Translations under genes and position numbers: made by a program
Shown here: one piece after another, positions 11,399 to 35,241 of the stretch
How positions within the stretch are numbered: position 1 is the first letter of the stretch
Layout: each line of letters begins with the position of its first letter
The notes under the pieces: model-generated
The model's input: the letters and a program-made list of their open reading frames with translations, nothing else
Database searches by the model: none
What the model was told of the DNA's origin: nothing
Assembly (NCBI GenBank): GCA_007120385.1
Contig: SKNT01000008.1
Coordinates: 1-37,764, forward strand
Length of the DNA: 37,764 bases
Source: Balneolales bacterium
GTDB lineage: Bacteria > Bacteroidota > Rhodothermia > Balneolales > Natronogracilivirgulaceae
Direction of reading: 5' to 3'

Positions 11399-11411
11399 GA
11401 TATTGTTCCTC

Positions 11412-15683: not shown

Positions 15684-15749
15684 GGTTGCGGTGTGAAGTT
15701 CTGTTAAAATTGACTGCTGGCGACTGGCCTGCAATTGGCAAGACAGCAC

Positions 15750-17231: not shown

Positions 17232-17291
17232 GTAAAGTATCCTGTTATGAAATTGTGAAAGTTACAGTTTTATTGGAAATCATCATGGTTG

Positions 17292-18758: not shown

Positions 18759-18774
18759 CGTTTTTTTAGACAGA

Positions 18775-19908: not shown

Positions 19909-19930
19909 CCTGATGTTATAATGTTGTGGT

Positions 19931-20488
19931 TCAATAGTTTTCAATAATTGTGGATTGCAGTCTCTCACAAATGAATTCGTAGCTCTGCTCCCAGCGTCCA
20001 AGTCGCTGCCGGGCCTCCTCCTCATCTACTCTCCGCGCAAAATGCTCCTTGTCGCGGCCATGGATCCGTCCGAGTACGATATCCACCGGGCACCGCAGGT
20101 AGACTGTATCGTCGTAGACCTGCCGAATGCGCTCCAGAAGCTTCTCCATTTCGCGGCTGGATCGCTCCTGCTCTCCCGGGCTGCTTTTATAGTGCAGCCG
20201 GCTCAGGTTGTAGATAGGTCCCTGGTCGTAGATCACTTTTATATTCTCTTTGCGGGCCAACAACTCAGCCACGATCAGCTTATAATAAATAAAGAAGACG
20301 ATTTTGCGCTTCAGGTTATCCCGGAAACGGAAAGCGAGACGCAATAACGGGATCATGTCGCGGGTGAGCAGCCGGAGCAGGACCCGCAGTTTGAGCCACG
20401 GGGAGACTCGAACTTTTGCCATGCCGGTTTGCCGTTTGACCCAGGTAGATTTTCCTGAGCCGGCGATACCATACACTTCAACGATCAA
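19931..20488 (-). CDS. Small P-loop nucleotide-binding protein (kinase-like, copy 1)
   Basis: The start is a TTG overlapping the stop of the upstream GT4 gene as TTGA (20485-20488), a coupling arrangement. The 185-residue product starts with a Walker A loop, 'VEVYGIAGSGKSTWVKR'. A middle helix set is rich in Arg/Lys. 'YDQGPIYNLSRLHYKS' and 'DTVYLRCPVDIVLGRIHGRD' resemble the lid and NMP-binding regions of dTMP-kinase or adenylylsulfate/shikimate-type kinases. A small-molecule kinase acting on a sugar or modifying group is a reasonable inference. The substrate is unknown. A second P-loop protein lies at 21686-22375. Confidence 0.75.
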   Translation of the reverse strand: MIVEVYGIAGSGKSTWVKRQTGMAKVRVSPWLKLRVLLRLLTRDMIPLLRLAFRFRDNLKRKIVFFIYYKLIVAELLARKENIKVIYDQGPIYNLSRLHYKSSPGEQERSSREMEKLLERIRQVYDDTVYLRCPVDIVLGRIHGRDKEHFARRVDEEEARQRLGRWEQSYEFICERLQSTIIENY

Positions 20489-21672
20489 GCCGCCGGTTCC
20501 TCATGCTTGACTGTTGCCGTTGTTTTGTGCCGGGTCACCTCCTTGAAGAAATCCAGGTACAGGTTGGCAAGACGGGGGAGGTTGAAATTCTCCAGGATGT
20601 GGTTCTTGCCGTTTCGACCCAACTGCCTGCATTTTTCATCATCGGCAAGCAGCTGGCGGATCCTTTGGGCCAGGGTGCCTGTGTCATCGGCCGGGCAAAG
20701 GAATCCGGTCTTGCCGTCTTTGACAGCCATTCCCACGTCTCCGGCGTCTGTAGTAACCACGGGACGTTCCAGATAGAGTGATTCCAGGGCGATCCCGGGA
20801 ACTCCTTCGGTATCGCTTGAGATAAAGAGCAGGTTTGAACCGCTGATAAACGGGGCCACATCGTCCTGGTATCCCCAGAAGATAACGCGATCCGAGATAC
20901 CGAGTTTGCCTGCCCTTGCCTCGGAGTCGCGGCGGAGATCACCGTCGCCCACCATCCAGGCCTCTGCTTCCGGCAGGTGTTCCGCCACTTTTGCAAAAAC
21001 ATCCAGAAAACGGTCGGGTCTTTTCTGCTTCGTGACGTTTCCGAGAAAGAGGACCACTTTACGGTCTTCCGGGCGTTTCAGGTGTTTTCTGGCATCGGAC
21101 CTGGATCCATTATTATTGAAACGGTCTGTGTTAAAAGCACGGGGAATGGCGGTTCCGGGACCATTGAAGGAGTAAAGGCTGCGAAAGTCTTCCAGTGCCT
21201 TCCGGCCAACACCGACGGCTCCGTCAATTCCAGGTACGATCATGTTTCTCATGTACCATTGTTTCAGCACGGAGCGGTTCCAGTAGACCACGCTGTCGAT
21301 TACCCGTACTACGAACGGGATATGGATTTTTTTCCGGCGGAGCATTTTGTTCACCATTCCGCCGTATTTCACGCTTCTGGCGCCGTTCAGCATGACTACA
21401 TCCGGCTGGAAATCCAGAATTTCACGCAGCACGCGGCGTTGCAGGGCGGGATGGCCGGCCGGCATGAGCTCCAACAGGCTCTTCTTGTCTCCTCCGAGGT
21501 AGGTGTCGTCTCCCTCGACTGGAAGGTCCATATCCTGTTCGCCGCTATTGTACAGATAGACGATTTTGCATCGGCACCCTTGCCGGTTCAGCTCCTGTTT
21601 GAGTTCGCGGGCAAAGATCTGCGCCCCTCTTCGAATAGGTTTGTTGTCCAGGATCAGTATTTTCTTGCTCAT
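20485..21672 (-). CDS. GT4-family glycosyltransferase
   Basis: The 395-residue product starts 'MSKKILILDNKPIRRGAQIF'. The N-terminal half has 'QPDVVMLNGARSVKYGG'; the donor domain has 'VVLFLGNVTKQKRPDRFLDV', 'AWMVGDGDLRRDSEARA' and the E-x7-E type motif 'SSDTEGVPGIALESLYLERP'. GT-B fold, retaining. 'RRGAQIFARELKQELNRQG' is a common N-terminal variant of polysaccharide-locus glycosyltransferases. It sits between the two P-loop genes, overlapping the downstream one by 4 bp and following the upstream one after 13 bp. Sugar specificity unknown. Confidence 0.88.
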   Translation of the reverse strand: MSKKILILDNKPIRRGAQIFARELKQELNRQGCRCKIVYLYNSGEQDMDLPVEGDDTYLGGDKKSLLELMPAGHPALQRRVLREILDFQPDVVMLNGARSVKYGGMVNKMLRRKKIHIPFVVRVIDSVVYWNRSVLKQWYMRNMIVPGIDGAVGVGRKALEDFRSLYSFNGPGTAIPRAFNTDRFNNNGSRSDARKHLKRPEDRKVVLFLGNVTKQKRPDRFLDVFAKVAEHLPEAEAWMVGDGDLRRDSEARAGKLGISDRVIFWGYQDDVAPFISGSNLLFISSDTEGVPGIALESLYLERPVVTTDAGDVGMAVKDGKTGFLCPADDTGTLAQRIRQLLADDEKCRQLGRNGKNHILENFNLPRLANLYLDFFKEVTRHKTTATVKHEEPAA

Positions 21673-21685
21673 GGTAATGCTTGTA

Positions 21686-22375
21686 TTACCGGATCACTTT
21701 CCAGCTGTGATCATTACTTGCGGATGGCTTGACAAAGTGCCTGTCCACCTGCTTTCCCGAAGACGCTTTTTCATTCAGGTAGGCATTGAATTTCTCATAC
21801 CATCCATCCACCCAGCCCTGCTCCTGGTATTTGAAATAGAGCAGTTTGTTGAAATCGGTAATTGAGGATTTCCGGTTGAACAGAAGAATTTTTTTTACCG
21901 ATTTGCGGATGTTTTGCGGGATCTTGCTGAACATCTGCGTGATCAGTTTCCGAATGGTGACACCGGCCGGTTGCCGGTCCAGTTTTTTGCCACCCAGCTC
22001 TCCTCTGGTCAGTTGCGAAAGCAGCACCTCCGGTTCCGGCTTGATGATATAAACCGTGATCCTGTTGGACCGGTTGATCATGAAATCAATATTGTCCTCA
22101 TGGTAGCCATTGAGGATTTTCTTAAAAGGTCTCAGGAAGTCGTAGTGAAGCACCATTCCGGGCAGCGGATTTTCACGGGTTGCGTTCATTTTTTTCGCAT
22201 ATTCGCTGGTAATGTACTTCATTGCAGGGACCGATGGCCAGCTGCTGATGTCTTCGGGGAAAATCCTGCGTGTGTCATCATCCAGCTTGCCTGCTGCCAG
22301 GCTCTTGATAAGAGTGCTTTTCCCTGAAGAAGTTGGTCCGGTAATGATCACCAGATGATCTATATATAATTCCAC
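21686..22375 (-). CDS. Small P-loop nucleotide-binding protein (kinase-like, copy 2)
   Basis: The 229-residue product begins with a Walker A loop, 'LVIITGPTSSGKSTLIKSLA' (start GTG at 22375, close to the P-loop). 'DISSWPSVPAMKYITSEYAK' and 'VYIIKPEPEVLLSQLTRGEL' follow. The C-terminal half, 'YFKYQEQGWVDGWYEKFNAY', is like that of other polysaccharide-locus P-loop proteins whose role is unknown. It is not closely similar to copy 1 apart from the Walker motif. It follows the LicD-like gene after 14 bp and precedes a GT4 gene after 13 bp. It may be a kinase for a sugar, a hydroxy acid or an activated side group. Function not assigned. Confidence 0.7.
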   Translation of the reverse strand: MELYIDHLVIITGPTSSGKSTLIKSLAAGKLDDDTRRIFPEDISSWPSVPAMKYITSEYAKKMNATRENPLPGMVLHYDFLRPFKKILNGYHEDNIDFMINRSNRITVYIIKPEPEVLLSQLTRGELGGKKLDRQPAGVTIRKLITQMFSKIPQNIRKSVKKILLFNRKSSITDFNKLLYFKYQEQGWVDGWYEKFNAYLNEKASSGKQVDRHFVKPSASNDHSWKVIR

Positions 22376-22389
22376 CCTGAATTCCTTAA

Positions 22390-23148
22390 TTAGTTCTTTT
22401 CATGGAGGATGCCCCCGTCCTGGGTAGTGTAATCCCAGTCTTTTTTGGGCACCCGCCAGTCTTTTCCGTATTTGTGGATGAGATACTGCTCCGGGCTGGT
22501 ATATATCTGAATATTCTCAATTTCCTCCATCAGTTTCGTTTTGTCAAGGTCAAACTGCCATTCCGGGCACTCCATGTCGATTGTCTTCATGAAGTAGCTG
22601 CGGTAGAACCAGGAGATGGAATTTGCTAACATCCACAAACCCAGGCGGAGGCCGTTCCGGCGGGACCGCTGCACGAGACCCAGGACTTCCTTGATTGTTT
22701 TTTCGATCACTTTGGCCAGGAAATTCTGGTGTTCGAAATCTGAGTAGGATTTCAAATAGCGACCGTTTTTGCCGTAGATGAAGGTCAGGTCCACTTTTTT
22801 GATATCTTCATCACTATTCAGCGATTTCAAGTTGATGCCGAATCTGGAGGTAAGCACCACAAGTCCCTTGTCCATCAGTTTTTTAACATCGGTCAGGCGG
22901 AGCCGGGGCCTGTCATGCTGCATGCAGGAAAGGTCTATGTCGTTGTCCCATTCAATAAGCTTTCCATCGCGCACCAGCCCCAGGAGTGTTCCCTGGTCTA
23001 CCCACGCTTTGCTGTTCTTCAGTATGATATTGTCGGTAAGCCGCAGGAGGGTCATATCACTATCATTGATCCGGAAACCGGAATTTCCAAAGTCCTTTTC
23101 GTCAGAGGTTAACTCACCTTCAATCATAAGCTTATTTGCGGTAGCCAT
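22390..23148 (-). CDS. LicD-family phospho(no)transferase
   Basis: The start is set at the ATG at 23148, preceded by AGGA at a good distance. It overlaps the reductase gene by 17 bp; an ATG at 23127 is an alternative. 'WVDQGTLLGLVRDGKLIEWD' leads into 'DNDIDLSCMQHD', the LicD metal/nucleotidyltransferase-fold signature. The C-terminus 'IQIYTSPEQYLIHKYGKDW' with 'RVPKKDWDY' matches the LicD family end. LicD enzymes move phosphocholine from CDP-choline to glycans; related members are thought to handle other CDP- or CMP-linked groups. Next to a phosphonate reductase gene, I infer a role in transferring a CMP-activated phosphonate (2-hydroxyethylphosphonate) to the polysaccharide. This is inference from context. 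Confidence 0.8.
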   Translation of the reverse strand: MATANKLMIEGELTSDEKDFGNSGFRINDSDMTLLRLTDNIILKNSKAWVDQGTLLGLVRDGKLIEWDNDIDLSCMQHDRPRLRLTDVKKLMDKGLVVLTSRFGINLKSLNSDEDIKKVDLTFIYGKNGRYLKSYSDFEHQNFLAKVIEKTIKEVLGLVQRSRRNGLRLGLWMLANSISWFYRSYFMKTIDMECPEWQFDLDKTKLMEEIENIQIYTSPEQYLIHKYGKDWRVPKKDWDYTTQDGGILHEKN

Positions 23149-24265
23149 TGATGTTCCTGTAATATACGTCAAATAATTCCGAGGTGCTTATTCTTGCCGG
23201 GTTGTTTCCCATCCTCTCCTCGTTGATGCTGTCAAGATACTTTTTGAGTGAGGATCGAGAAGTGAGGCCGGCTTCTGAAACATCCATTCGAAGTCCCATG
23301 TTTTTTTTCAGCCTGGATATGCCTCCGGCCAGGGCATCGGCATCTGACACCTCGAAGAGGGTGAAGAAGTCGCGGCGAACATTTTTCGAAACCACCGGCA
23401 GGTTTTTACGGATGAAGAATTCCATATTCATGGCTACGGCTTCTCCGTGCGGCACGCCAAGATGATCGGTCAGATAGTAGGACATGGCGTGCGGACCGGT
23501 GGTTTTTGAGATATTGATTGCTTTTCCGGCAAAGAAGGCTCCGAGGGCCATGGCTCTGCGGCTTTTGCTGTCGGGATGGTGGCAGAACTGTTCCAGGTGT
23601 GGAAGGATGAGCGTGATGGCATGGCGGGCGTATTCCATGCTGCGCGCGGTGGCGTTGCGCGCCCAGAGCGACTCCATGGCCTGGCACAGAGCATCCATGC
23701 CGCTTGTGGCAGTCTGTGCGGCAGACATGCCTGTAGTCAGTTCCGGGTCCACAACAACGTAAGCCGGCTGAAGCTGCGGCGAGGCAAGGGAGTACTTGGA
23801 TCCGTCGCGGTACATTACGGCGAAGTGGGTGGCTTCGCTGCCTGAACCGGCCGTAGTCGGTACGGCGGTGATCGGTGCCGCTACGGGAAGACCGCTGATA
23901 TCGGGAAAGCCGGCATCCAGTGCCTGCGGATTTTCCAGATATATGGCAACCAGTTTGGCGAAATCCATCACACTGCCTCCGCCTACGGCAATGATCATGT
24001 CGACATGAGCGCCTTTCAGTTGTTCAAGTGCTGCCACCAGGGCTTCATGGGACGGGTTGGTGCCAAATCCGCTGTAACGCGTAACCGAAACACGGCTTGC
24101 CATCTGTTCGAAATAGTCGCGTGCACGGGACCGGTCATAGGACGATCCTCCCGTGAAAAGCAGAACGGACCGGACGTTCCTTTTCTGCAGGATATCGTCC
24201 AGGGCCATACGGAAATCGGTGTCAAGGTATTCAGTCACGCCGTTGCTTCTGAAAAGATTGCTCAA
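23132..24265 (-). CDS. Iron-ADH-family reductase, probable phosphonoacetaldehyde reductase
   Basis: The 377-residue product has the group III Fe-ADH cofactor motif 'GGGSVMDFAK' (95-104) and 'PTTAGSGSEAT'. At the metal site, Asp191 and Gln195 lie in 'DALCQAMES', with His259 in 'GPHAMSYYL' and His273 in 'VPHGEAVAMN'; Gln195 stands where canonical Fe-ADHs have the first His ligand. Directly upstream is phosphonopyruvate decarboxylase, which makes phosphonoacetaldehyde. The inferred reaction is NAD(P)H-dependent reduction of phosphonoacetaldehyde to 2-hydroxyethylphosphonate, as PhpC-type enzymes do in phosphonate pathways. Its position just before LicD suggests the product is the glycan substituent. 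A general aldehyde reductase is the alternative. Confidence 0.85.
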   Translation of the reverse strand: MSNLFRSNGVTEYLDTDFRMALDDILQKRNVRSVLLFTGGSSYDRSRARDYFEQMASRVSVTRYSGFGTNPSHEALVAALEQLKGAHVDMIIAVGGGSVMDFAKLVAIYLENPQALDAGFPDISGLPVAAPITAVPTTAGSGSEATHFAVMYRDGSKYSLASPQLQPAYVVVDPELTTGMSAAQTATSGMDALCQAMESLWARNATARSMEYARHAITLILPHLEQFCHHPDSKSRRAMALGAFFAGKAINISKTTGPHAMSYYLTDHLGVPHGEAVAMNMEFFIRKNLPVVSKNVRRDFFTLFEVSDADALAGGISRLKKNMGLRMDVSEAGLTSRSSLKKYLDSINEERMGNNPARISTSELFDVYYRNINGYRK

Positions 24266-24322
24266 AACTGTTGTGGAAAAGGTTGTGTCGTGTAATATCC
24301 GGGGTTCTTCTTGCCTGCGGGG

Positions 24323-25519
24323 TTAATCGGGGATCGGTCGGGCCGATTGTTTCTGAGCCAGATGATCCATCAGATCGGTCTTGTTTTGGATGGGGGTGCG
24401 TGTGGGCCGTCCCAGGTCCTTTCGTGCGCCCCTTGCAACCTGCACTTCCAGCAGTACGGGGCCGTCGGTACGTGCAAGCCAGTCCAGGGCTTCCCTGAGA
24501 CCGTCCGGATCCGATACCCGCCGGGCTTTGCGATATCCGCAGGCCATGGCAATGGCAGGGATATCAATATCAAATGCAACGGTTGGCTGTCCGCCCACCG
24601 AGTCGTGGGCGCCGTTGTTGACCACGATATGTTTGAATCCTTTGGGTGCGTTTGCACCGATGATGGCGAGCGATCCCATGTGCATGATCAGTGCTCCGTC
24701 ACCATCCACACAGCAGATTGTCCGTTCGGGCCGGCTCAGCGCGGCGCCGAGGGCAATCTGGGAGCAGTGGCCCATGGACCCCACGGTCAGAAAGTCACGG
24801 TGATGGCCCATATTCCCCTGGGCGCGTATCTCGAATATCTCGCGTGAAGGCATGCCGGTCGTGGATACGACGACCGTGTCATCGTCGAGTGACCGGATGA
24901 TGGCCTCCAGCGCTTCCTCACGTTTCATCTGTGGTGCCGCGGACGTACCGGGTCTTTCTTCGGTTTGGGTCGCGGTGCCGCTGTTGCCGGTCTCTTTTCC
25001 CTCCCACTTCACGAAGGTGCCTTTTTGCACAACCAGTGCCACCGGACGGTTTTCCTGCTGTGCCTGCGCCAAGAGACGCCGCACAACCGATGCATAGTCA
25101 CGGGTATCGGGCCCGATCACTTCGTATGGCAGTTCCATGGCATCCAGCAGGCCATTCTGCACACGGCCCTGCTTGACGTGCTGCGGTTCGTCTTTTACTC
25201 CGGGCTCGCCGCGCCAGCCGATCATGAGCAGCATGGGTATGCTGTAGACTTCGCGGTCGGCGATGGAGAGCAGCGGATTGACCGTGTTGCCGAGGCCGGA
25301 GTTCTGAAGGTAGACCATGGCCATGCGCCTGGTGGCGATATGATAGCCGGTGGCCAGGCCCACCGCCGCGCCTTCGTTGGCGGCAATGACATGCTGTTGC
25401 GGAGCCACGCTTGCCGTGATGCAGGCGCAGATCTCCTTGAGCAGGGAATCGGGCACGCCGGTGAAAAAACCGACGCCCTCATCCTGCAGGGTCTTTAGAA
25501 ATTCGTTATTGGATATCAT
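24323..25519 (-). CDS. aepY: Phosphonopyruvate decarboxylase
   Basis: The start is the ATG at 25519, overlapping the aldolase stop by ATGA (25516-25519); upstream residues of the frame lie inside the aldolase gene. The 398-residue product begins 'MISNNEFLKTLQDEGVGFFT' with 'TGVPDSLLKE' and the ThDP-activating Glu in 'AANEGAAVGLATGYH'. 'LLMIGWRGEPGVKDEPQH' and 'KQGRVQNGLLDAM' are characteristic of phosphonopyruvate decarboxylases. The ThDP/Mg motif runs from 'GDGALIMHMGSLA' to 'VNNGAHDSVGGQPT'. Reaction: phosphonopyruvate to phosphonoacetaldehyde plus CO2, the irreversible step that drives C-P bond formation forward. Sulfopyruvate decarboxylase is related, but the PEP mutase in the locus settles the call. 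Confidence 0.93.
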   Translation of the reverse strand: MISNNEFLKTLQDEGVGFFTGVPDSLLKEICACITASVAPQQHVIAANEGAAVGLATGYHIATRRMAMVYLQNSGLGNTVNPLLSIADREVYSIPMLLMIGWRGEPGVKDEPQHVKQGRVQNGLLDAMELPYEVIGPDTRDYASVVRRLLAQAQQENRPVALVVQKGTFVKWEGKETGNSGTATQTEERPGTSAAPQMKREEALEAIIRSLDDDTVVVSTTGMPSREIFEIRAQGNMGHHRDFLTVGSMGHCSQIALGAALSRPERTICCVDGDGALIMHMGSLAIIGANAPKGFKHIVVNNGAHDSVGGQPTVAFDIDIPAIAMACGYRKARRVSDPDGLREALDWLARTDGPVLLEVQVARGARKDLGRPTRTPIQNKTDLMDHLAQKQSARPIPD

Positions 25520-26316
25520 CCCAGATCCGTTTCGTCCAGTTTTTGGCAAATGCCGTTGAGTGCCTGCACCAGGATGGTCATTTCAATGGAATAGCCCAGA
25601 AATGCCATGCCGCTGTCGCGCCAGTGCCGGAGCTGCTGAATGGTGTCGGTGAAGATCCCCAGTTTCACGTTGCGGCGTGCGGCGCGGACGATCAGATCCT
25701 CAACGGCCCGTGTGACGCGGGGATTCTCAATGTCGCCGGGAATGCCCAGCGATTGCGAAAGGTCATACGGACCCACAAAGATCACGTCTATGCCGTCCAG
25801 AGAGATGATCTCGTCGAAGTTGTCCAGGGCCTCGCTGCCTTCCACCTGCATGACCATGAGGCTGCGGTTGGCTTCCGGAAAGTAGTCTTCCCTGGCCATG
25901 GCGCCGTAATTTGCGGCGCGCACAAAGCGGCATACCCCGCGTTCGCCATGCGGATGAAACCGGGCCAGTTTGAGCGCGATTGCGGCCTGTTCGGCACTTT
26001 GCACGGAAGTCACCATGATGCCGTGGGCGCCCAGGTCCAGCGCCTTGCCGATATGCATGCTGTCGTAGCGCTCCACCCGGACAATGCCCAGTGTCGGCGT
26101 GGCTTGCAGCGCCATCAGGTGCGTTTTGAGCGTCTCGGTGGTTATCGGCGAGTGTTCCATGTCCAGCACGGCGAAATCCATGCTGCTGTGGCCGATCGCT
26201 TCGATGACCGAGCTGTCGGTGGTTTTGCAGAATATGCCCAGAACGTGCTTATCCTGCATTTTCTGGCGGAATTCTGACAGTTTATTGGCGAAATGGAAGG
26301 GAGATTGCAGAGTCAT
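25516..26316 (-). CDS. HpcH/HpaI aldolase family protein (copy 2)
   Basis: The 266-residue product carries clear HpaI-type motifs. 'FAVLDMEHSPITTETLK' resembles the 'lDxEHgp' site, 'GAHGIMVTSVQSAEQA' lies in the barrel core, and 'QVEGSEALDNFDEI' carries the metal-binding Glu. 'GIDVIFVGPYDLSQSLG' carries the matching Asp, and 'LGYSIEMTIL' ends the barrel. Family reaction: reversible aldol of pyruvate (or a related enolate) with an aldehyde to a 4-hydroxy-2-keto acid. It sits between Ppd (ATGA overlap) and a 2-hydroxyacid dehydrogenase (97 bp, with a hairpin). Phosphonopyruvate or phosphonoacetaldehyde are possible co-substrates because of the neighbours, but this is speculation. Confidence 0.87.
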   Translation of the reverse strand: MTLQSPFHFANKLSEFRQKMQDKHVLGIFCKTTDSSVIEAIGHSSMDFAVLDMEHSPITTETLKTHLMALQATPTLGIVRVERYDSMHIGKALDLGAHGIMVTSVQSAEQAAIALKLARFHPHGERGVCRFVRAANYGAMAREDYFPEANRSLMVMQVEGSEALDNFDEIISLDGIDVIFVGPYDLSQSLGIPGDIENPRVTRAVEDLIVRAARRNVKLGIFTDTIQQLRHWRDSGMAFLGYSIEMTILVQALNGICQKLDETDLG

Positions 26317-26370
26317 ATGTTGGTCTGTGATGTAGTGACAGGATGTAATTGTCTATGATGAATGCACCGG

Positions 26371-26411
26371 CCGTGCCCGCTTTCGGGGAAACGGATGCGA
26401 AGCCGGCACGG
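26371..26411 (-). promoter_or_regulatory. Hairpin between the 2-hydroxyacid dehydrogenase and HpaI genes
   Basis: CCGTGCC (26371-26377) and GGCACGG (26405-26411) form a 7-bp stem. After one mismatch (C26378/C26404) GCTT (26379-26382) pairs with AAGC (26400-26403), leaving a loop of 17 bases, or less if a G-U pair closes it further. It begins two bases past the stop of the dehydrogenase on the minus strand, within the 97-bp gap to the aldolase. No T-run follows on the minus strand, so I regard it as an mRNA-processing, stability or attenuation element rather than a strong terminator. Confidence 0.45.
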
Positions 26412-26413
26412 GT

Positions 26414-27358
26414 TCAGTACAGAAGGTTGTAGGGAGTCTTGTTCTCGTAGATGCGCAGTGCGTTCCGGGCAGCATTGATCCGCAATTCCCGGGAGGATGC
26501 GGCCGAGTAGTACGAGGTGTGCGGGTTGATGATCAATCGTCCGCGCAGCCACTCCTCACTGTTGCGCCATGCGCTGATGAGTGCATCGTCGGCCGGCGGT
26601 TCCTGCGGCAGCACGTCCATTGCCACGGCGGACAGGTGTTCCGAGCGCAGTGCGTCATGGAGGATGCCGGTATCGGCCAGCAGTCCGCCTCTCGCCGTGT
26701 TGACAAGGGCGCTGCCCGGTTTCATGGCGGCGATGAAACCGGCGTCGATCATGCCGCGGGTCTCGTCGCTGAGCGGCGTATGCACCGATACGATGTCCGA
26801 TGCGGCCAGCAGCTCATCCTGGGAGTCCACCCGCCGGCTCTGAAGCATCTTTTCGTATCCGCGCGGCCGGTATGGGTCGTATAAGACGGTCTGGAACCCG
26901 AGGGCCCGGCATTTTATAAGCACGCTGCCGCCGATGCGGCCCGCGCCGACCACGCCCAGCACGGTGTCGCTGGTGCGCCTGATGGCGGTGTTGACGTTTT
27001 CCTGCCAGTTTGACCGGTAGGCTTTTGCGGCGTGGTCGTAGGTGAATACGCCGCGGACGATGTTCAGTATCATGGCCACGGCGGTATCGGAAACCTCATC
27101 CACCCCGTAGTCGGGATTGTTGCAGGCAACGATGTTGCGCTGTTTCAGGGCAGGCAGGTCCAGGTTGTCGTATCCCACGCCGTAGCGCTGCACGCCGCGA
27201 AGGGCCGGCAGGCGGTCCACGTACTCGCCGGTGATATGGTCATGCCAGACGAGCAGCACCTCGGTGTCGGGGCCGGCTTTTGTGCCGACCAGGTCGCCGA
27301 GGATCTCGCGCTCCACATCCGGCTCTTTGAAATAATCGGTAATGGCTATTACGGACAT
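26414..27358 (-). CDS. D-isomer-specific 2-hydroxyacid dehydrogenase (copy 2, CtBP-like)
   Basis: The 314-residue product has 'VLGVVGAGRIGGSVLIKCRA' (NAD fold) and the catalytic triad: Arg in 'LVNTARGGLLAD', Glu in 'AMDVLPQEPPADD' and His in 'IINPHTSYYS'. 'RGVQRYGVGYDNLDLPALKQ' is typical of the C-terminal-binding-protein/phosphoglycerate-dehydrogenase group. Expected to interconvert a 2-keto acid and D-2-hydroxy acid. It lies six bases after the KdsB-like gene and is co-directional with the aldolase. Clearly different in sequence from the other dehydrogenase at 11412-12380, so this is not a recent duplication. A role in oxidising a hydroxyalkylphosphonate, as PhpE-type dehydrogenases of this superfamily do in phosphinothricin biosynthesis, is possible but unproven. 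Confidence 0.86.
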   Translation of the reverse strand: MSVIAITDYFKEPDVEREILGDLVGTKAGPDTEVLLVWHDHITGEYVDRLPALRGVQRYGVGYDNLDLPALKQRNIVACNNPDYGVDEVSDTAVAMILNIVRGVFTYDHAAKAYRSNWQENVNTAIRRTSDTVLGVVGAGRIGGSVLIKCRALGFQTVLYDPYRPRGYEKMLQSRRVDSQDELLAASDIVSVHTPLSDETRGMIDAGFIAAMKPGSALVNTARGGLLADTGILHDALRSEHLSAVAMDVLPQEPPADDALISAWRNSEEWLRGRLIINPHTSYYSAASSRELRINAARNALRIYENKTPYNLLY

Positions 27359-27364
27359 GCGTTG

Positions 27365-28096
27365 TTATCCCTCTTTTGCGGCAGCTTTCATGCGTTTCTC
27401 GACGATCTTGACATCTTTGGGCTCGTCTATCGCCCAGCTGTCGCCTATCATATCGATGCAGTAGACCGGGATGTCCAGCTCCAGGAACCGGATGATGTCG
27501 AGCTGCTCGATGCGGTCGATTCGGGAATAGGTGCGCTCGCTTACGTAGCGGTCCAGCGCCTGCTTGTTGAAAGCGAACAGCCAGATCGCCTTCTCGGCTG
27601 TGTCGAAGTTGCCGCGGATATCCAGCGGGATGCCGGCACGGGAGGTAAACAGCAGACGTCCGTCGGGCGCGCATACCACTTTTGCTTTCGAGGGGTCCCC
27701 GAAGTCGGTTTCACTGCACTCCGTCTTGCCAAAGACAATGCGTCCGGGATGTTCCCGGTTGTAATCCAGCAGGCGGCGCACATCGCGGGTGTTGACCAGC
27801 GGCTCGTCGCCCTGGATGTTCAGATAGGCGTCGGCGGGCACCTGATCGCTGAGCAGCTTTATGCGCGTGGTGGCGCACTCGGCCGGACCGGTATTCACGC
27901 AGTTCATCCCGTTTTTCTCACAGTATTCGACGATCACGTCGTCTTCGGTTGCCAGATAGATATCCTCTTCGGGGTGCACCTGTGCGCAGCGCTCCCATAC
28001 GTGCCGGATGACCGGCTTGCCCAGGATGTCGATCATCGCCTTGCCCGGAAGACGCGAGCTGGTCATGCGGGCGGGAATTGCAATTACCTGTCTCAT
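27365..28096 (-). CDS. KdsB-like CMP-keto-acid cytidylyltransferase
   Basis: The 243-residue product matches KdsB (CMP-Kdo synthetase) along its length. 'IPARMTSSRLPGKAMIDILG' is the nucleotide-binding start, 'YLNIQGDEPLV' has the metal-binding Asp97, 'RIEQLDIIRFLE' is the lid, and 'AIDEPKDVKIVE' has the second Asp. The KdsB 'SGTER' sugar-binding stretch reads 'CATTR' here (74-78). It should join CMP to a 3-deoxy-2-keto acid or a related acid. No KdsA or KdsD is visible, so genuine Kdo supply would have to come from elsewhere. With the aldolase, dehydrogenases and HAD phosphatase around it, activation of a different keto acid made by this cassette is a reasonable inference. Confidence 0.83.
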   Translation of the reverse strand: MRQVIAIPARMTSSRLPGKAMIDILGKPVIRHVWERCAQVHPEEDIYLATEDDVIVEYCEKNGMNCVNTGPAECATTRIKLLSDQVPADAYLNIQGDEPLVNTRDVRRLLDYNREHPGRIVFGKTECSETDFGDPSKAKVVCAPDGRLLFTSRAGIPLDIRGNFDTAEKAIWLFAFNKQALDRYVSERTYSRIDRIEQLDIIRFLELDIPVYCIDMIGDSWAIDEPKDVKIVEKRMKAAAKEG

Positions 28097-28137
28097 ATTT
28101 TCTTAATTTCGATTACAGTCGGGTTGAACTCAGGTTT

Positions 28138-29022
28138 TCAAAAATCAGCCCGGACCGTGTTGGTCAGGGTTCCCAGTCCTTCAATTGAGACCGAGACGCG
28201 ATCGCCGTCGCGGATCACGGAATCCTCGGCATTTGCGGGGGTGCCGGTCAGGATTACGTCGCCCGGTTCCAGCGTGAAAAAATGCGAAAGAAAACTGACC
28301 ACTTCGGCGTCATTGAGGATGCGTTTGTCCGTGGAGCTGGACTGCATCACCCTGCCGTTGATCGAATTGGTCATTTTCAGGGAGGATGTGTCCACACCCG
28401 TGACAATGGCCGGGCCAAGCGGGCAGAACGTATCCCAACCCTTGGAGCGGGCCAGATGGTGGTCGCGGCCATGGCAGTTGCTCATGGTCACGTCGTTGCC
28501 AATGGTGAAGCCCAGGATATGGTCCGGAGCCTGCTGCGGTGAGACATGGCGGCATGTTTTGCCGATGATGATGGCCAGTTCCACCTCGGTCCAGACCTTT
28601 CGGTCTTCCTGCAGGACAATGGTTTCGCCCGGACCGATGACGGCCGAGGGCGGCTTGAGGAAGATGACGGGTTCGTCGTAGGCCACGCGCTCCCCCACCA
28701 GATCCTTGTAGTTGTAGCCCAGGGCGATGACCTTGCCGGGGCGGACCGGGGCAAGCAGGGCCACCTCGCTCAGCGGGAGGGTCTGTGTGCCAGTGTGTGC
28801 GGCGGATTGTGCGGTGCTGCGCTGCGCGCGATCGGGGGAGTTTCCTGATCCGGCGATGCCGGGGTGTGCCGGTCCGGCGGCATCCAGCAGGGATATGAGG
28901 CTGCCGGCATCTGTGCCGCCTACCCGCTCCCCGCGGATCGATTGTCCCGGCGTGGTCACCATGTCGCCATCAATCACGCCGTAAGCCGTTTCCCCGTTGT
29001 ATCGGTATCGTACAATTTTCAT
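28138..29022 (-). CDS. Fumarylacetoacetate-hydrolase-family protein
   Basis: I set the start at the ATG at 29022 ('MKIVRYRYNGETAYGVIDGD'), with GAGGA upstream. An ATG at 29040 overlaps the GAPDH-like stop as ATGA and is an alternative. 'ALGYNYKDLVGE' and 'PVIFLKPPSAVIGPGETIVL' precede 'WTEVELAIIIGKTCRHV', whose acidic residues bind the metal in the family. 'GFTIGNDVTMSN' and 'GDVILTGTPAN' are also typical. FAH-family enzymes hydrolyse, isomerise or decarboxylate beta-keto, acyl-pyruvate or oxaloacetate-like acids. A low-complexity insert of about 30 residues (near residues 50-80) follows the N-terminal domain. Placed between GAPDH-like and KdsB-like genes; exact reaction unknown. Confidence 0.85.
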   Translation of the reverse strand: MKIVRYRYNGETAYGVIDGDMVTTPGQSIRGERVGGTDAGSLISLLDAAGPAHPGIAGSGNSPDRAQRSTAQSAAHTGTQTLPLSEVALLAPVRPGKVIALGYNYKDLVGERVAYDEPVIFLKPPSAVIGPGETIVLQEDRKVWTEVELAIIIGKTCRHVSPQQAPDHILGFTIGNDVTMSNCHGRDHHLARSKGWDTFCPLGPAIVTGVDTSSLKMTNSINGRVMQSSSTDKRILNDAEVVSFLSHFFTLEPGDVILTGTPANAEDSVIRDGDRVSVSIEGLGTLTNTVRADF

Positions 29023-29036
29023 TCTTGCAGCTATCC

Positions 29037-30065
29037 TCATAGCAGTCGGCTGATGATGTGGTAGACCCGGCTGGTGTACCCCCATTCGTTGTCATACCAA
29101 AGGACGAATTTCAGCATTTTGCCCTTGTTCAGATACAGCCAGCGCATGTCCACCACCGCGGCGTTTTCGTTGCCGAGATAATCGATGGAGATAAGCGAGC
29201 GTCCGTCGAGTTTGAGTACGCCGGGATATTTTTCCGTATAGGCCTCAAGGGCTTCCTGCACCTTTTCCAGGGTGGTGCTTTTTTCCAGGAGGAACACCCC
29301 GTCAATGGATGAGACGATGGAGGTCGGGGTGCGGAAAGAGGAGGCGTGAAGTTTTTCGACGCTATCGGGCAGCACTTTCTGCATGGCGCTGCACAGGGTG
29401 GTCTCCTTGGGGATAAGGCTGCCTATGCTGCTGCGTCCCAGCGCATAATCGCGCCACAGGTGACCGGGACTGGAGACGGACTGCAGGGTGCCGTCCAGCA
29501 GGTTCTGATATGAAAGCCAGGGGTGCAGGGTGGTTACTTCACCGACGTCAATGCCGAATTCGCGCTCAATGAGTGTGTAGAAGGGTCCGAGCGCATTGGC
29601 ATCGCAAATGCTGCTGCTGATGACGTGATGCCGGGATTTGTCGTATTGGTCCGAGTTCACCCCGTACATGTAGGAGAAGTCAATGCCCTGGTTTGGTGCA
29701 TGGGTTACGATCACCTTTTTGACTGACCCGTTGATGATCTCGTGTGCCTGCTTCACATTCTGAAACACGCCTGATGCTTCGACCACCAGATCCACTCCCA
29801 TTTCATCCCACGGCACATTTTTGATCTCCCGCTCCCGAAACACCTTGATGGAATCACCGTTGATTTTGATCAGGTCCCCTTCCACTTCCACCTTGTCATC
29901 GCGAAGTTTGCCGTAGGTGGTGTCGTATTTGAGCAGGTAAGCGTGATTGTGGATGTCTTCGTCTATATCGTTGACCGCGACAATGCGGTACTTCTGGTGA
30001 CGCAGATTGATGCGCGTCAACGCTCTCCCTATCCTCCCGAATCCGTTGATGCCAATTTTTATCAT
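29037..30065 (-). CDS. GAPDH-like dehydrogenase with a divergent active-site region
   Basis: The start is the ATG at 30065, overlapping the HAD stop by ATGA (30062-30065). The 342-residue product has the GAPDH N-terminus 'MIKIGINGFGRIGRALTRIN' and the C-terminal 'WYDNEWGYTSR'. The canonical 'SNASCTTNCLAP' reads 'SSSICDANALGP' here, keeping Cys154 but changing the surroundings. His181 is kept in 'TTLHPWLSYQ'. The phosphate-site region reads 'GRSSIGSLIPKETTL' in place of the usual 'Ni(I)P(a/s)(s/t)TGaa'. Thus it should still form a thioester on an aldehyde, but probably on a substrate other than glyceraldehyde-3-phosphate. Location inside the cassette argues for a specialised, non-glycolytic role. 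Confidence 0.87.
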   Translation of the reverse strand: MIKIGINGFGRIGRALTRINLRHQKYRIVAVNDIDEDIHNHAYLLKYDTTYGKLRDDKVEVEGDLIKINGDSIKVFREREIKNVPWDEMGVDLVVEASGVFQNVKQAHEIINGSVKKVIVTHAPNQGIDFSYMYGVNSDQYDKSRHHVISSSICDANALGPFYTLIEREFGIDVGEVTTLHPWLSYQNLLDGTLQSVSSPGHLWRDYALGRSSIGSLIPKETTLCSAMQKVLPDSVEKLHASSFRTPTSIVSSIDGVFLLEKSTTLEKVQEALEAYTEKYPGVLKLDGRSLISIDYLGNENAAVVDMRWLYLNKGKMLKFVLWYDNEWGYTSRVYHIISRLL

Positions 30066-30688
30066 AACAGATCTCCTAAGTTTGATATGATCTTGTCGAT
30101 TTTGTTTTTCCGGAAATACTCTTTCCATTCTGCAAATTGCGTATAGCCACTCATGAAAATAAAGCCAAGTCCAAACTCTTTTGCTACTTCATGGTCATGG
30201 CGGCTGTCCCCGATGAAGAGCGCGGGTTCCGGGTACTCCAGGCGCCGCAGGTGCTCTGATTTGGTATCGGGGCCGGCCAGAATCCCGTCAAACTGGTCGA
30301 GTCCGTTTCGCCGGAGAATGGCCCGGATCTCGCCGGCATCGCCGCCCGAAAGCACCCAGGTGCGGGCTCCGTCCTGCTGGCAGTTTTGAAAAAACAGTTC
30401 AAAGCCGGGTGTTGTGGAAATGCGTTCGAAGGACTCGCGGTTGCGCCGTGCATAATCCTGTAAAATCTGCCGGCCGGTTTGTGCATCGAAGCGGGAGTAG
30501 ACTTTCTTCTCCCTGGGCACTCCGTTGTTTGCGGTGAAAAAGGAGACAAATTCCGCTGCGGGTTGCGGGGCAAGGTGTTTTGCCACCGAGGCGTGGATAT
30601 TCCGCTTCTTGAGGGTGTTGGTATCGGCGATCACCCCGTCGAAGTCAAAAAAAACGGTTTGGTATCGCACTCCTTCTATCTCAGGCAC
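30062..30688 (-). CDS. HAD-superfamily phosphatase
   Basis: The 208-residue product has the nucleophile motif 'VFFDFDGVIADT', a helical cap, the motif-II-like 'TWVLSGGDAGEIRAILRR' and the acidic motif 'LFIGDSRHDHEVAKEFGLGF'. This is a type I (alpha cap) HAD hydrolase, close in layout to phosphoglycolate phosphatases. Expected to remove phosphate from a small sugar or acid phosphate, for example the precursor of the KdsB-like substrate (as KdsC does for Kdo8P, although KdsC is a capless HAD). It overlaps the GT2 gene by 8 bp upstream and the GAPDH-like gene by ATGA downstream. Phosphonoacetaldehyde hydrolase belongs to the same superfamily, but I do not see its signature lysine region. Confidence 0.84.
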   Translation of the reverse strand: MPEIEGVRYQTVFFDFDGVIADTNTLKKRNIHASVAKHLAPQPAAEFVSFFTANNGVPREKKVYSRFDAQTGRQILQDYARRNRESFERISTTPGFELFFQNCQQDGARTWVLSGGDAGEIRAILRRNGLDQFDGILAGPDTKSEHLRRLEYPEPALFIGDSRHDHEVAKEFGLGFIFMSGYTQFAEWKEYFRKNKIDKIISNLGDLL

Positions 30689-31634
30689 GATTTGACCCTT
30701 TAGATTTGGCGACAGCGGACCCTGTCAGGTATTTGGGAATCTTTTTGAATGGAATCACGCTCAAATAGAGCCTTGTCAGGTAGGAGTACTTCTTCTTTCC
30801 GGTCACCTTGCTGTGTTCCTTGAATGCTTTCATACAGCGGTTGTTGGCAAACATTTTGAGCAATCGGGCGGTTCGGCCCCGGTGTTTTTTCAGCAGGTGG
30901 CGGACGGTGGCCAGTTCGGCATCTGCGGTATTGATCGAGGTGTTGGTCACCATGTTGACCGAATCCTTGTAGTAGCGTGCACCGACATGTGCGCTCCAGG
31001 CCATTCCCTTTGCGTGTTCAATGCAACGCAGCCAGGTGTCGATATCCCCCCCCCGCTTCGATCGTCCAGCCGGGAACCCGCCTGCCTGCCGCATCACTTC
31101 CCTGCGGATGCAGGTAACCGATGTCCAGAGCGGGCGGTATCCTGCCACGAACACCTCCAGGTAGCTGTCCAGGTCCAGGAAATGGTTGCCGCGCGACTTG
31201 TACCGGCTGTAGTATTCCCCCATTATCACAGAGCCGTCTTTTTGGATGATTTCGCGGCCGCAACCCAGCACCCCTGCCTCCGGATAATGGCTACTGAGTT
31301 CAAGATGCTTTTGCAGGTGTTCCGGGAACCATTCGTCGTCGGCATCCAGGAAGGCAACCCATTCGGCTCGGGCTTTTTCGGTACCAAGGTTGCGGGCGGC
31401 ATATCCACCGGGACCGCTCTCCGAGCGGTGATAAATGCGGATGCGCGGGTCGTCAAACTTTCCGATCTCATCCATGCTGTTGTCGGTGGAAGCGTCATCC
31501 ACCAGTATCAGCTCAAAGTCGCCGCAGGTCTGGCGCAGCGCGGACCTGACTGCCCTGCCGACATGCGGTCCCTTGTTGTACACGGGTATAATTACAGAGA
31601 AAAACGGTATCCCTTCACTGGATTCTTTTATCAT
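30681..31634 (-). CDS. GT2-family glycosyltransferase with a G9 tract
   Basis: The 317-residue product has the GT-A fold signatures 'FSVIIPVYNKGPHVGRAVRS', 'LILVDDASTDNS' and the donor-metal motif 'VAFLDADDEWFPEHL' (DxD-type, residues 96-98). 'GGDIDTWLRCIE' is the acceptor-site region with catalytic-base-like acids. An inverting transferase adding one sugar to the repeat unit. On the coding strand a run of nine G (31046-31054) covers codons for Arg-Gly-Gly at residues 194-196; one-base slippage would truncate it just after the donor domain. In this sequence the frame is intact. Overlaps the next gene upstream by ATGA (31631-31634). Confidence 0.9.
   Translation of the reverse strand: MIKESSEGIPFFSVIIPVYNKGPHVGRAVRSALRQTCGDFELILVDDASTDNSMDEIGKFDDPRIRIYHRSESGPGGYAARNLGTEKARAEWVAFLDADDEWFPEHLQKHLELSSHYPEAGVLGCGREIIQKDGSVIMGEYYSRYKSRGNHFLDLDSYLEVFVAGYRPLWTSVTCIRREVMRQAGGFPAGRSKRGGDIDTWLRCIEHAKGMAWSAHVGARYYKDSVNMVTNTSINTADAELATVRHLLKKHRGRTARLLKMFANNRCMKAFKEHSKVTGKKKYSYLTRLYLSVIPFKKIPKYLTGSAVAKSKGSNRA
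31046..31054 (-). repeat. G9 homopolymer inside the GT2 gene
   Basis: Nine consecutive C on the plus strand (G on the coding strand) lie inside the glycosyltransferase reading frame. Poly-G tracts of this length are slippage-prone and drive phase variation of surface-glycan glycosyltransferases in Campylobacter and some other bacteria. The copy here is in frame. Confidence 0.8.
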
Positions 31635-33115
31635 TTCAATGCACTGACGATATTTTGCACGGCGCTATCACCGGTATCCGAGAACAGGTGCTGCGTGTAA
31701 AATGGTTTAGGTTTCATGGAGTCGATTTTTTTTATCAGTGAGGCGACACTGCCTGGTTCAGCAACGTGCGGGTATTGATTGCCGGTGATCTTGCGGAACA
31801 GGTGGCCTATGCGGTGCAGGTAAAGTTCGATTGTATTGATCTTCAGATACAAGGGTATGACGCCGTAGTGAAGTGCTTCCAGTGCCAGTGTGGATGAGAT
31901 CGTGACGCACATATGCGCATTCCGCAGGCTTTCATCAAGGGTGGATCGGAAATAGTCGTGCCATTCGATGTTGGGGATGTCGGCATACTGCTCCTTGACA
32001 TCCTCGGGGATGGGGTAATTCGGGTGACTGCGGATGCGGATCTGATAATCAGGCAGGTCCCGTGCCGTTTGAATGGCCGCTTCCATGAAGCGTTCCAGGT
32101 CATCCTGATTGATAAAGGGCCGCATGATTTTCTGAACGGCGAAGAGAATGATCCGGGGGGATTCAGACGACAGCCTGGCGGCACTGTCTGACTCTGTTCC
32201 GCGCTCTTCAAGTCCGGGATGCCCGACCATCCGTATCTGGATATCGGGGTTGTAGTCTTCGACGCTCTCTCGAAAAAACTCACCCCAGGCCAGGAAGCGG
32301 TCAAACGGCATGTTTCGCCACCCTGTTTTGGGTACGGGTGTGCCGACGAAGCCCCACTGCAGGCAGAAGGATTTGCTCCCGATCATCCGGCTTGCCAGGC
32401 CGGTAATATGGAGGATGGAGGTATCGCCTTCAACGACAAAGGTTTTCTGCGGAAGGTGGTAGCCCCATGTTCCCAGGATTTTGTCTATGGCCCGGCACAC
32501 GGTGTCGGCCCTGAAGTAGCACTGATTCCAGAAGGCCGGAAAATCCCTTCTCTCGCGCATGAAGCGTCGGGTATCGGAGACATCCACATCCCTGCGACAT
32601 TTGTCATAGGCGTAATAGCGCACCGAAGTTCCCGTGTCGCGCAGCTCCTGCTCCACTTTTTGCAGGTAGGGGAAGTATTTTTTCTGGTTTATGGGAATCA
32701 CCACATCTGTGGGCTGCCGGGGACTGCTCTTCAGCACGGACATCAGCCAGTAGCCCACATCTTTGACTATTCTCAGCGGGTACATGAGCGGAGGGGTGCC
32801 AAGCAGATCTATTTTACGGTTGATGACACGTACGATACGCGGTTCATCCACCCTGATCGGATCCTCACGAAACAGCTCCTCAATCTCCGGGTCCGACATG
32901 ATTTGCCAGTACACCTTGTGTTCGATGATCGGTTTCATGGCAAAGCCCTTGTAACTCAGGTCGCCGAAGCGCTGCTCTGTCAATTCTGCGGTTTTGCTGA
33001 TGATGAACTCGTGCAGCATGCGCGAGCTGCTGCGGGTCACGGCACCTGCAATGGGGTCCGGATTGGTTAATCTGGAACGGAATGTGAAAAATCGGGGAGA
33101 TCGGGGTTCACTCAT
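31631..33115 (-). CDS. GT-B-like glycan protein (CDP-glycerol transferase / capsule transferase-like)
   Basis: I take the ATG at 33115 as start, four bases past the PEP mutase stop; a GTG at 33130 would overlap it. The 494-residue product is mostly soluble. 'FVVEGDTSILHITGLASRMI' precedes 'LQWGFVGTPVPKTGWRNMPF', and the C-terminal half has 'IRIRSHPNYPIPEDVKE', 'IEWHDYFRSTLDESLRNAH' and 'TISSTLALEALHYGVIPLYL'. The last stretch matches the donor-binding pattern of CDP-glycerol glycerophosphotransferase-like and KpsS-like enzymes (Ser-Ser/Thr with an invariant Glu). Likely transfers a sugar or a CDP/CMP-linked phospho-group to the glycan. Adjacent to PEP mutase, so a phosphonate transferase role is an alternative to the LicD candidate. 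Confidence 0.68.
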   Translation of the reverse strand: MSEPRSPRFFTFRSRLTNPDPIAGAVTRSSSRMLHEFIISKTAELTEQRFGDLSYKGFAMKPIIEHKVYWQIMSDPEIEELFREDPIRVDEPRIVRVINRKIDLLGTPPLMYPLRIVKDVGYWLMSVLKSSPRQPTDVVIPINQKKYFPYLQKVEQELRDTGTSVRYYAYDKCRRDVDVSDTRRFMRERRDFPAFWNQCYFRADTVCRAIDKILGTWGYHLPQKTFVVEGDTSILHITGLASRMIGSKSFCLQWGFVGTPVPKTGWRNMPFDRFLAWGEFFRESVEDYNPDIQIRMVGHPGLEERGTESDSAARLSSESPRIILFAVQKIMRPFINQDDLERFMEAAIQTARDLPDYQIRIRSHPNYPIPEDVKEQYADIPNIEWHDYFRSTLDESLRNAHMCVTISSTLALEALHYGVIPLYLKINTIELYLHRIGHLFRKITGNQYPHVAEPGSVASLIKKIDSMKPKPFYTQHLFSDTGDSAVQNIVSALK

Positions 33116-33119
33116 GATG

Positions 33120-34427
33120 TCAGCTTGCACCGGGTATCAGGGTGATGATATCTTTGATGGACATCATGTTGTCGCGCGCTTCGTAGGCGCGGCGGTGGGT
33201 CAGGATGCGCCGTGCGGTGTCGACCATGGCCGGGTAGGCGCTGCGCAGCAGCTGGTTGGCGTAAATGACCACATTCACACCGGCTTCGGCCAGTTCCTTT
33301 TCCGTGATGGTATCATAGCTCGAAGGAACGACCACCAGCGGCACATCGCGGTCAAATTTTGCAAAATTTTTACAAAACTCCAGGATTTCGTCCGGTTTTT
33401 TCTCCTTTGAGTGGATCATGATGCCATCGGCACCCGCCTCAATATAGCCCCTGGCGCGTTCAAGCGCATCCTTCATTCCATTCTTGAGGATGAGGCTCTC
33501 TATGCGGGCAATGATCATGAAATCTTCGGTGATCTGGGCGGCCTTGCCGGCCTTGATCTTGCTGCTGAAGTTCTCAATGGTATCCTGCTGCTGGCTGACA
33601 TCGGTGCCGAAAAGCGAGTTTTTCTTGAGTCCCACTTTGTCTTCAATGATTATGGCCGAGACGCCCAGCCGCTCAAGGGTGCGGATGGTGTACCCGAAAT
33701 GTTCGATTTTACCGCCGGTATCGCCGTCAAAGATGATCGGCTTGGTGGTCACTTCCAGCAGGTCGTTGATGTTGCCGATGCGCGCGGTGATGTCGACTGC
33801 CTCGATGTCCGGTTTGCCTTTCATCGTGGAGTCGGTCAGGGAGCTGGCCCACATGCCGTCAAATTCCTGGCGCACGCCGTTGACATCCACATGGGTGTGT
33901 TCGACGATAAGCCCCGACATGCCGCTGTGCGCTTCTATGATGCGGACCACATCCTTGGAATTGATGAGCCGCCGCAGGCGTTTGCGCCGGATATCAGGGG
34001 TAACGCCCACTTCGCGCAGCGCCTTGTTCAGTTTGCTGGAGGATATGCCGTGGGTGTAGGGGATTTCAATGAGTTCGCCGCCCCACTCCTTCAGTGTGTC
34101 GATCACCTGCTGGCGCGTACGCTTCTGCGGGCCCTCCCGCCAGTCGTCCCCGTGCACAACGTAATCGGGCTTGAGCTTTTTCAAGTTCGGGCGGTAGTCG
34201 AGCTGAAACTGCGGCACCACCTTGTCCACTCCTTTCAGGTTTTCGACTACTTCACGGCGTTGTTCGAACTCCAGATAGGGAAGCCGCTTGTAGCTGGCGA
34301 TGGCCTCATCCGTAAGCAACCCCACGGTAAGACTTCCCAGTTTGGCTGCCTCGCGAATGATATTGAGGTGACCCGGATGGACCAGGTCGGCGCTCATTCC
34401 CACGTATACGGTTTTCTGTTTTGCCAT
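33120..34427 (-). CDS. aepX: Cytidylyltransferase/phosphoenolpyruvate phosphomutase fusion
   Basis: The 435-residue product is a two-domain fusion. Residues 1-135 are a nucleotidyltransferase of the glycerol-3-phosphate cytidylyltransferase type, with 'HPGH' at 17-20 and '[13 protein letters not shown]' at 127-139. Residues about 150-435 are a PEP mutase TIM barrel with '[12 protein letters not shown]' (234 on), the diagnostic '[10 protein letters not shown]' (262-271, EDKx5NS) and 'ARIES' (307-311). The mutase makes phosphonopyruvate from PEP, forming the C-P bond. The fused domain probably activates a phosphonate as its CMP ester, giving the donor for transfer to glycan. This fusion is known in glycan-phosphonate loci, for example around the 2-aminoethylphosphonate capsule of Bacteroides. 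It is seven genes away from Ppd but in the same run. Confidence 0.93.
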
Positions 34428-34479: not shown

Positions 34480-35241
34480 TCATTCGTGGACACTCAGGTT
34501 CACGCGCTCATTTTCCATGAGCCGCTGAACCACTATTCTGTCCGGGAGGATGTGCCACTGAAGATTGATCTTGTTCTCCATGTCGGTGCGGATCACCCTG
34601 TGGCTCACCTTGTATATATCCCTTTTCTGAAAGCTGATTCCGGCTATTTCGTAGATGTTGTTGTAACCATGCTCATAAATCGCAAAAAGGACGGCAAAAA
34701 TGCCTGAAGATGGCCGGAAATAGGGTGAATAGTCTTTCCGTTGGAGGATATTGCGTTTGAAAATACCGCTGAAGCACAGTCTGCTGAATTCGTAGGTTGA
34801 CAATTCCTTCCAGGCATCAATTATGCCAAGGGGCATGCGATAGCCGGTGATTTGCCGCAGGATCTGATCCCGTTCCCGGCGCGGGATGACGCGGATGTTG
34901 CCGCGTGGTACGCCCAGATCGGTAAGTATGCTCACACTGTTGTTGTTTTCGGTGTTGTACAGGACAAAACGGGTGTGTGCATACCGCTCCATATCGCTGA
35001 TAAGAGTACCGACCGGTGCCCCGGATTTCTGGTAGCGTCCAATGCGTTCGTAGTTGCGGATGCTGTTTCCGTTCACAAAGTGGATGACTTCCATATCCGG
35101 CGGTATGCTGTCGCTGAAGAGGGTCACACTTCCGTTAACGAAATAGGTTATGTGGCTGTCCGGAAGCATGCTGTCCGGTTTGGAACCCATTATGGCTATG
35201 GTTTTCATGGATTCGTCTTCAGCTGTTGTGCTTTTTTGCAT
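34480..35241 (-). CDS. Putative GT42-like (sialyltransferase-fold) glycosyltransferase
   Basis: The ATG at 35241 overlaps the pyruvyl transferase stop as TGATG; an ATG at 35208 ('MKTIAIMGSKPDSML') is an alternative and gives the more typical N-terminus. The 253-residue product has 'TIAIMGSKPDS' at its start, recalling the nucleotide-binding loop 'GNGPS' of GT42 and related DUF115-like enzymes. 'FRPSSGIFAVLFAIYEHGYN' then 'IYEIAGISF' matches the second GT42-type motif (T/S-SG....A...GY.eIY..Gi.f). Likely a glycosyltransferase using a CMP-activated acid sugar. That would fit the KdsB-like cytidylyltransferase in the locus. Weak family evidence; needs a profile search. Confidence 0.55.
   Translation of the reverse strand: MQKSTTAEDESMKTIAIMGSKPDSMLPDSHITYFVNGSVTLFSDSIPPDMEVIHFVNGNSIRNYERIGRYQKSGAPVGTLISDMERYAHTRFVLYNTENNNSVSILTDLGVPRGNIRVIPRRERDQILRQITGYRMPLGIIDAWKELSTYEFSRLCFSGIFKRNILQRKDYSPYFRPSSGIFAVLFAIYEHGYNNIYEIAGISFQKRDIYKVSHRVIRTDMENKINLQWHILPDRIVVQRLMENERVNLSVHE

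Follow-up and report, generated by a model that had tools for sequence, protein, structure and literature searches.

A predicted module for making, CMP-activating and attaching 2-hydroxyethylphosphonate in a surface-polysaccharide locus of a Balneolales bacterium

2-Hydroxyethylphosphonate (HEP) is a substituent of the phosphonoglycans of the actinobacterial genera Stackebrandtia and Glycomyces. A phosphonate-bearing exopolysaccharide of Stackebrandtia nassauensis and Glycomyces is cited in two reports (PMC8931226, PMC12723261), and two others establish that marine dissolved polysaccharides carry HEP in ester linkage, together with methylphosphonate esters (PMC5649143, PMC9381506). The marine esters are known as a chemical pool and not from a gene cluster, with no transferase assigned to them in the passages that describe them. 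HEP-bearing polysaccharides are thus already known, and the view taken in a first-pass annotation of the DNA described here, that HEP on a polysaccharide of this group is much less described, needs correction. Among characterized enzymes, Fom1 of fosfomycin biosynthesis, a bifunctional PEP mutase and CTP:HEP cytidylyltransferase, reportedly forms CMP-HEP from HEP (PMC6697681), and a 2019 survey found fusions of a PF01467 domain to PEP mutase in about 24% of PEP mutases. Related routes to a cell-surface target are the Pnt pathways with a LicC-like PntC in Atopobium rimae and Treponema denticola (PMC6697681), which share with the locus presented herein a PEP mutase, a phosphonopyruvate decarboxylase (Ppd), activation with CMP and a LicD-like transferase. 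However, they employ a 2-aminoethylphosphonate (AEP) transaminase and a MobA-like (PF12804) cytidylyltransferase, where our locus has an iron-dependent-type alcohol dehydrogenase (Fe-ADH) and a cytidylyltransferase of the PF01467 type.

In this work, we analyzed a window of 37,764 nucleotides, that is, the whole of contig SKNT01000008.1 from a Balneolales bacterium whose genome is 90.7% complete; since the window edges are also the contig ends, the gene cluster is truncated. The minus-strand genes form a long co-directional series, closely spaced or overlapping, that starts with an asparagine-synthase-like gene at the right edge and extends across the interval 22390-34427. Pfam scans of the flanks detected a Wzi-like protein, UDP-sugar dehydrogenase and dehydratase genes, a PglC-type initiating transferase, several glycosyltransferases and a pyruvyltransferase, which identifies a capsule or exopolysaccharide locus. 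Upstream of the interval (34480-37764, minus strand) lie genes for a 262-aa protein without matches, the polysaccharide pyruvyltransferase and the asparagine-synthase-like protein, the latter cut by the contig end; downstream (9353-22375, minus strand) are found, among others, glycosyltransferases, the PglC-type transferase (13210-13860) and an NDP-sugar dehydratase (9353-11398). This region also encodes a 508-aa protein without Pfam match (17292-18818) that resembles AMP-dependent ligases of the PaaK/F390-synthetase type, below the NCBIfam cut-offs, and is unusual for a glycan locus. Both the polysaccharide setting and the phosphonate genes named by the first-pass annotation were recovered, the latter all on the minus strand.

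We estimate a probability of about three in four that the locus contains a phosphonate-tailoring module that makes HEP, activates it with CMP and attaches it to the glycan. In the proposed route, PEP mutase would convert PEP to phosphonopyruvate, Ppd would decarboxylate this to phosphonoacetaldehyde, which the metal-dependent alcohol dehydrogenase would reduce to HEP; the cytidylyltransferase fused to the PEP mutase would then form CMP-HEP, from which a LicD-family transferase would link HEP to the glycan through a phosphonate ester. HEP as the end product, which had been predicted in the first annotation, and CMP-HEP as its activated form are favored by the resemblance of the fused domain to Fom1, the conservation of the PEP mutase-Ppd-Fe-ADH module across phyla, the split of a residue signature between two types of fusion, the kinship of the Fe-ADH to a sulfoacetaldehyde reductase and the lack of any PhnW/AepZ protein above cut-off, as detailed below.

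The cytidylyltransferase-PEP mutase fusion (PepM; 33120-34427, minus strand) scored 415.7 bits with the equivalog model TIGR02320 (cut-off 319.55) and 57.5 bits with PF01467. Its N-terminal Fom1-type cytidylyltransferase domain (residues about 1-140) carries an HPGH motif and K47 and is followed by the PEP mutase, in which the expected EDKx5NS motif is present as a stretch of ten residues. The closest match of the fused domain was the Fom1 structure 5x3d (E 2.6e-57); its identity to the Fom1 domain is 64%, with 50-56% for relatives linked to AEP transaminases. Similarity to Fom1, an intact HxGH and an IASYKR block are the sequence features of a Fom1-type HEP cytidylyltransferase, and specificity for HEP is predicted on these grounds. 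The two fusions are alike in domain order and in the HxGH and IASYKR signature, but the neighbors of the window fusion are Ppd, Fe-ADH, LicD and glycosyltransferase genes in a polysaccharide locus and, in contrast to the Fom1 context, no methyltransferase or epoxidase-type gene of fosfomycin synthesis was found in the window.

Ppd (24323-25549, minus strand) reached 482.7 bits with TIGR03297, above the equivalog cut-off of 312.5. The third enzyme, a metal-dependent (Fe/Zn) alcohol dehydrogenase (23132-24265, minus strand; PF00465 over threshold), is predicted to be a phosphonoacetaldehyde reductase. It scored 168.6 bits with TIGR03405, the equivalog for the phosphonate Fe-ADH PsrA (cut-off 423.7), and is thus a relative and not a member of that group; the Fe-ADHs of two sister modules (L051 and L052) are likewise below this cut-off. 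The nearest solved structure, 6jko, is that of BkTauF, a reductase that makes isethionate, the sulfonate analogue of HEP, from sulfoacetaldehyde (PMC6616044). When the BkTauF site was mapped on 63 module Fe-ADHs, D192, T257, H261, F265 (as Tyr) and H275 were invariant and the Q196 position was occupied by Q or H throughout, so that the catalytic residues are retained in the window enzyme, whereas BkTauF differs in acting on a sulfonate and in serving taurine metabolism. By genomic context and by analogy, reduction of phosphonoacetaldehyde is the most likely function of the window Fe-ADH.

Beyond the window genome, 395 genomes of the phylum were examined, six of which encode the fused PepM. All six belong to the same order: two encode PepM-Ppd-Fe-ADH (PepM 76-77% identical), while the other four have an AEP transaminase in the same place of the module (PepM 61-63% identical). 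The cytidylyltransferase domains of the two types differ in three blocks, namely a first block of ten residues, AIASYKRLP and HGDDW in the Fe-ADH type, shared by the Fom1 domain (5x3d), versus MGTDLIHHGH, AVTKFSRIP and HGTDW in the transaminase type. In a scan of GTDB genomes with a PepM alignment, most of the best 80 loci of a longer list contained PepM-Ppd-Fe-ADH, from many bacterial phyla and from archaeal MAGs; this synteny makes it a conserved module across many phyla. One such locus, in a Stackebrandtia MAG (L108), shares both the fusion and the Fe-ADH with the window. The phosphonoglycan systems of Stackebrandtia nassauensis and Glycomyces are actinobacterial and differ from the window locus in the polysaccharide and in the flanking glycan genes. 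In a set made of the best GTDB loci plus added Bacteroidales loci, an intact HxGH together with Lys47 was found, among the matches listed, in 72 of 72 Fe-ADH-linked fusions and in 0 of 9 transaminase-linked ones. K47 by itself was discarded as a HEP marker, since a transaminase-type fusion (L184) keeps this lysine with a broken HxGH (HPGI), and the combined signature was used instead. This combination was chosen after the data had been seen and, when a tree was built leaving the signature columns out, both the third-step enzyme and the signature were found to switch three times each; with three independent switches, too few for significance, and a post hoc choice, the signature is only a lead. 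The clade that holds the window fusion in that tree is supported and contains 10 rows, of which eight are Fe-ADH-linked and two unlabelled. The motif is also broken in a second AEP-type Bacteroidales locus (L134, HPGL), and L134 and L184 together suggest that the cytidylyltransferase domain is dead in loci with an AEP transaminase. Besides, the fusion occurs in about 20 IMG/VR viral contigs (L025-L045; up to 189 kb) and in two human-gut phage records (MT836947 and MT837901), with Ppd-like and Fe-ADH-like genes after it in most cases; viruses may carry the HEP module.

The transfer step is plausible. The LicD-family protein (22390-23172, minus strand; its true start may lie near 23124) matches PF04991 with 32.2 bits (gathering score 22.6) over 35 residues that cover the N-terminal motif only. 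The block GxLLGxxR...DxDxD is present, with G61, L63-G65, R68, D76, D78 and D80 invariant among 18 proteins, and the core of a modest structure model (pLDDT 63) gave FKRP as its best match. As FKRP structures with CDP-ribitol are available in the PDB and CDP-choline is a known substrate of LicD enzymes, transfer from CMP-HEP is chemically reasonable. Among the matches listed, a LicD gene lies on the same strand and no more than 1.5 kb from the module in 20 of 61 HEP-type loci and is absent from that distance in the other two thirds; LicD genes are also found near AEP modules, so their presence does not discriminate HEP from AEP. Movement of HEP onto the glycan by LicD is made plausible by its position next to the module in roughly one third of the loci and by the FKRP-like core. 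An alternative candidate transferase is the 499-aa glycosyltransferase-like protein that adjoins PepM (31631-33130, minus strand; DUF6716 at 26.4 bits, just under the cut-off of 27); in L051, the gene in this position matches the CDP-glycerol glycerophosphotransferase family. Next to it is a family 2 glycosyltransferase (PF00535; 30681-31634, minus strand). Of the activation and transfer route proposed earlier, with the fused cytidylyltransferase followed by LicD, the activation half is supported, the domain being closest to the HEP cytidylyltransferase of Fom1, and the transfer half is plausible.

Among the tailoring phosphonates of the literature, AEP is the most common (PMC6697681) and, as described above, four genomes of the same order pair PepM and Ppd with an AEP transaminase; a product of this kind would imply a transaminase that the assembly lacks, or one from a family other than PhnW/AepZ. 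Pfam scans of the window proteins detected no aminotransferase family, in line with the first-pass annotation, which saw no AEP transaminase, and the search outside the window that it had proposed gave a best score of 56.6 bits with the PhnW-AepZ model TIGR03301 in the whole 91%-complete genome, where the cut-off is 360.8 and true AEP transaminases of same-order sister genomes, used as positive control, score 370-372. The genome is likely to lack the enzyme, although, being incomplete and with the contig truncated, the assembly could have missed it and its absence is not proven. A dedicated Fe-ADH occupies the place of the transaminase, the fused domain belongs to the type found in Fom1 and in Fe-ADH-linked fusions, and the fusion falls in the Fe-ADH clade; we rejected the AEP branch and regard such a product as very improbable. 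It is less far-fetched, if still unlikely, that CMP-activated HEP is an intermediate of a path that leads to a further phosphonate, such as methylphosphonate, or to a methyl ester, or that it ends on a lipid- or protein-linked glycan and not on the polysaccharide. Methylphosphonate and fosfomycin are both known to derive from HEP (PMC8931226, PMC9381506), and in Prochlorococcus SB, whose phosphonate genes have capsule-like surroundings, the phosphonates were nevertheless recovered with the protein fraction. Against this, the window Pfam scans detected no radical-SAM/B12 or cupin-type oxygenase domain, and LicD and glycosyltransferase genes directly adjoin the module.

The interval had also been annotated as one phosphonate branch, and here our results disagree: pepM and ppd, normally adjacent, are separated by a cassette of six minus-strand genes (25516-30688). 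It encodes a HAD phosphatase (30062-30688; PF00702, homologues in L164 and L172-L174), a GAPDH variant (29037-30128; PF00044/PF02800), a fumarylacetoacetate-hydrolase-family (FAH) protein (28138-29085; PF01557, homologue in L164), a KdsB-like CMP-sugar-type cytidylyltransferase (27365-28096; PF02348, below the NCBIfam KdsB cut-offs), a D-2-hydroxyacid dehydrogenase (26414-27358; PF02826) and an HpcH/HpaI-type aldolase (25516-26316; PF03328, homologues in L162, L163 and L172-L174). A core composed of the GAPDH variant, the cytidylyltransferase, the D-2-hydroxyacid dehydrogenase (homologues 36-62% identical), HpcH and/or FAH and usually HAD is shared with three bacterial genomes of the phylum and with several viral contigs (L162-L164, L167, L172-L174), where no PepM lies in its vicinity; no PEP mutase was present in whole viral cassette records, which matched the cytidylyltransferase part alone, and weakly. 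The GAPDH variants of the carriers have in common the active-site blocks SICD (SICDA in the window) and TT(L/V)HPWL(S/N)YQN (TTLHPWLSYQN in the window), unlike canonical GAPDH. A viral-contig scan with the 2-hydroxyacid dehydrogenase alone gave no matches, whereas the GAPDH alignment did find viral carriers; other GAPDH matches in phages and plasmids were set aside, as they reach at most 37.5% identity and, where annotated, are ordinary GAPDH or erythrose-4-phosphate dehydrogenase. The segment 11412-13213 of the window, next to the PglC-type initiating transferase, encodes another HpcH-like protein and another D-2-hydroxyacid dehydrogenase.

The interruption of the pepM-ppd pair by overlapping or closely spaced genes, and the presence of an HpcH-type aldolase and a KdsB-type cytidylyltransferase, both chemically compatible with such a role, could indicate that the cassette acts on the phosphonate, for example by aldol addition of pyruvate to phosphonoacetaldehyde and CMP activation to give a phosphonosugar acid. 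However, the core exists without PepM in the bacterial genomes and viral contigs mentioned above, and the cassette was found in none of the best 80 PepM loci, with isolated KdsB-like matches in L089 and L096 only. A role in the phosphonate route was rejected for this reason and appears highly unlikely; both observations indicate a separate unit. We think that the cassette probably makes a second CMP-activated acidic donor by an undescribed pathway, a literature search on it having found nothing relevant. Tentatively, and with somewhat less than even odds, the polysaccharide may bear HEP as one CMP-activated substituent and, as another, a new 2-oxo or ulosonic acid that this virus-shared cassette supplies in CMP-linked form.

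As HEP esters of polysaccharides, phosphonoglycans and PF01467-PEP mutase fusions have already been published, the phosphonate branch belongs to a known kind; a complete predicted HEP gene set in a capsule-type locus is a good example of a widespread and little-studied kind, not a new one, and the six-gene cassette is the more novel part. New here are the residue signature, the breadth of the PepM-Ppd-Fe-ADH module and the separation of the second cassette. The combination of HxGH and Lys47 may allow prediction from sequence of whether a fused PEP mutase serves the HEP or the AEP branch. HEP esters make up a notable share of the phosphorus of marine polysaccharides and are a source of ethylene, and the genes that place HEP on glycans are poorly assigned; the window locus, with its many relatives, supplies a compact and testable candidate gene set for this process.
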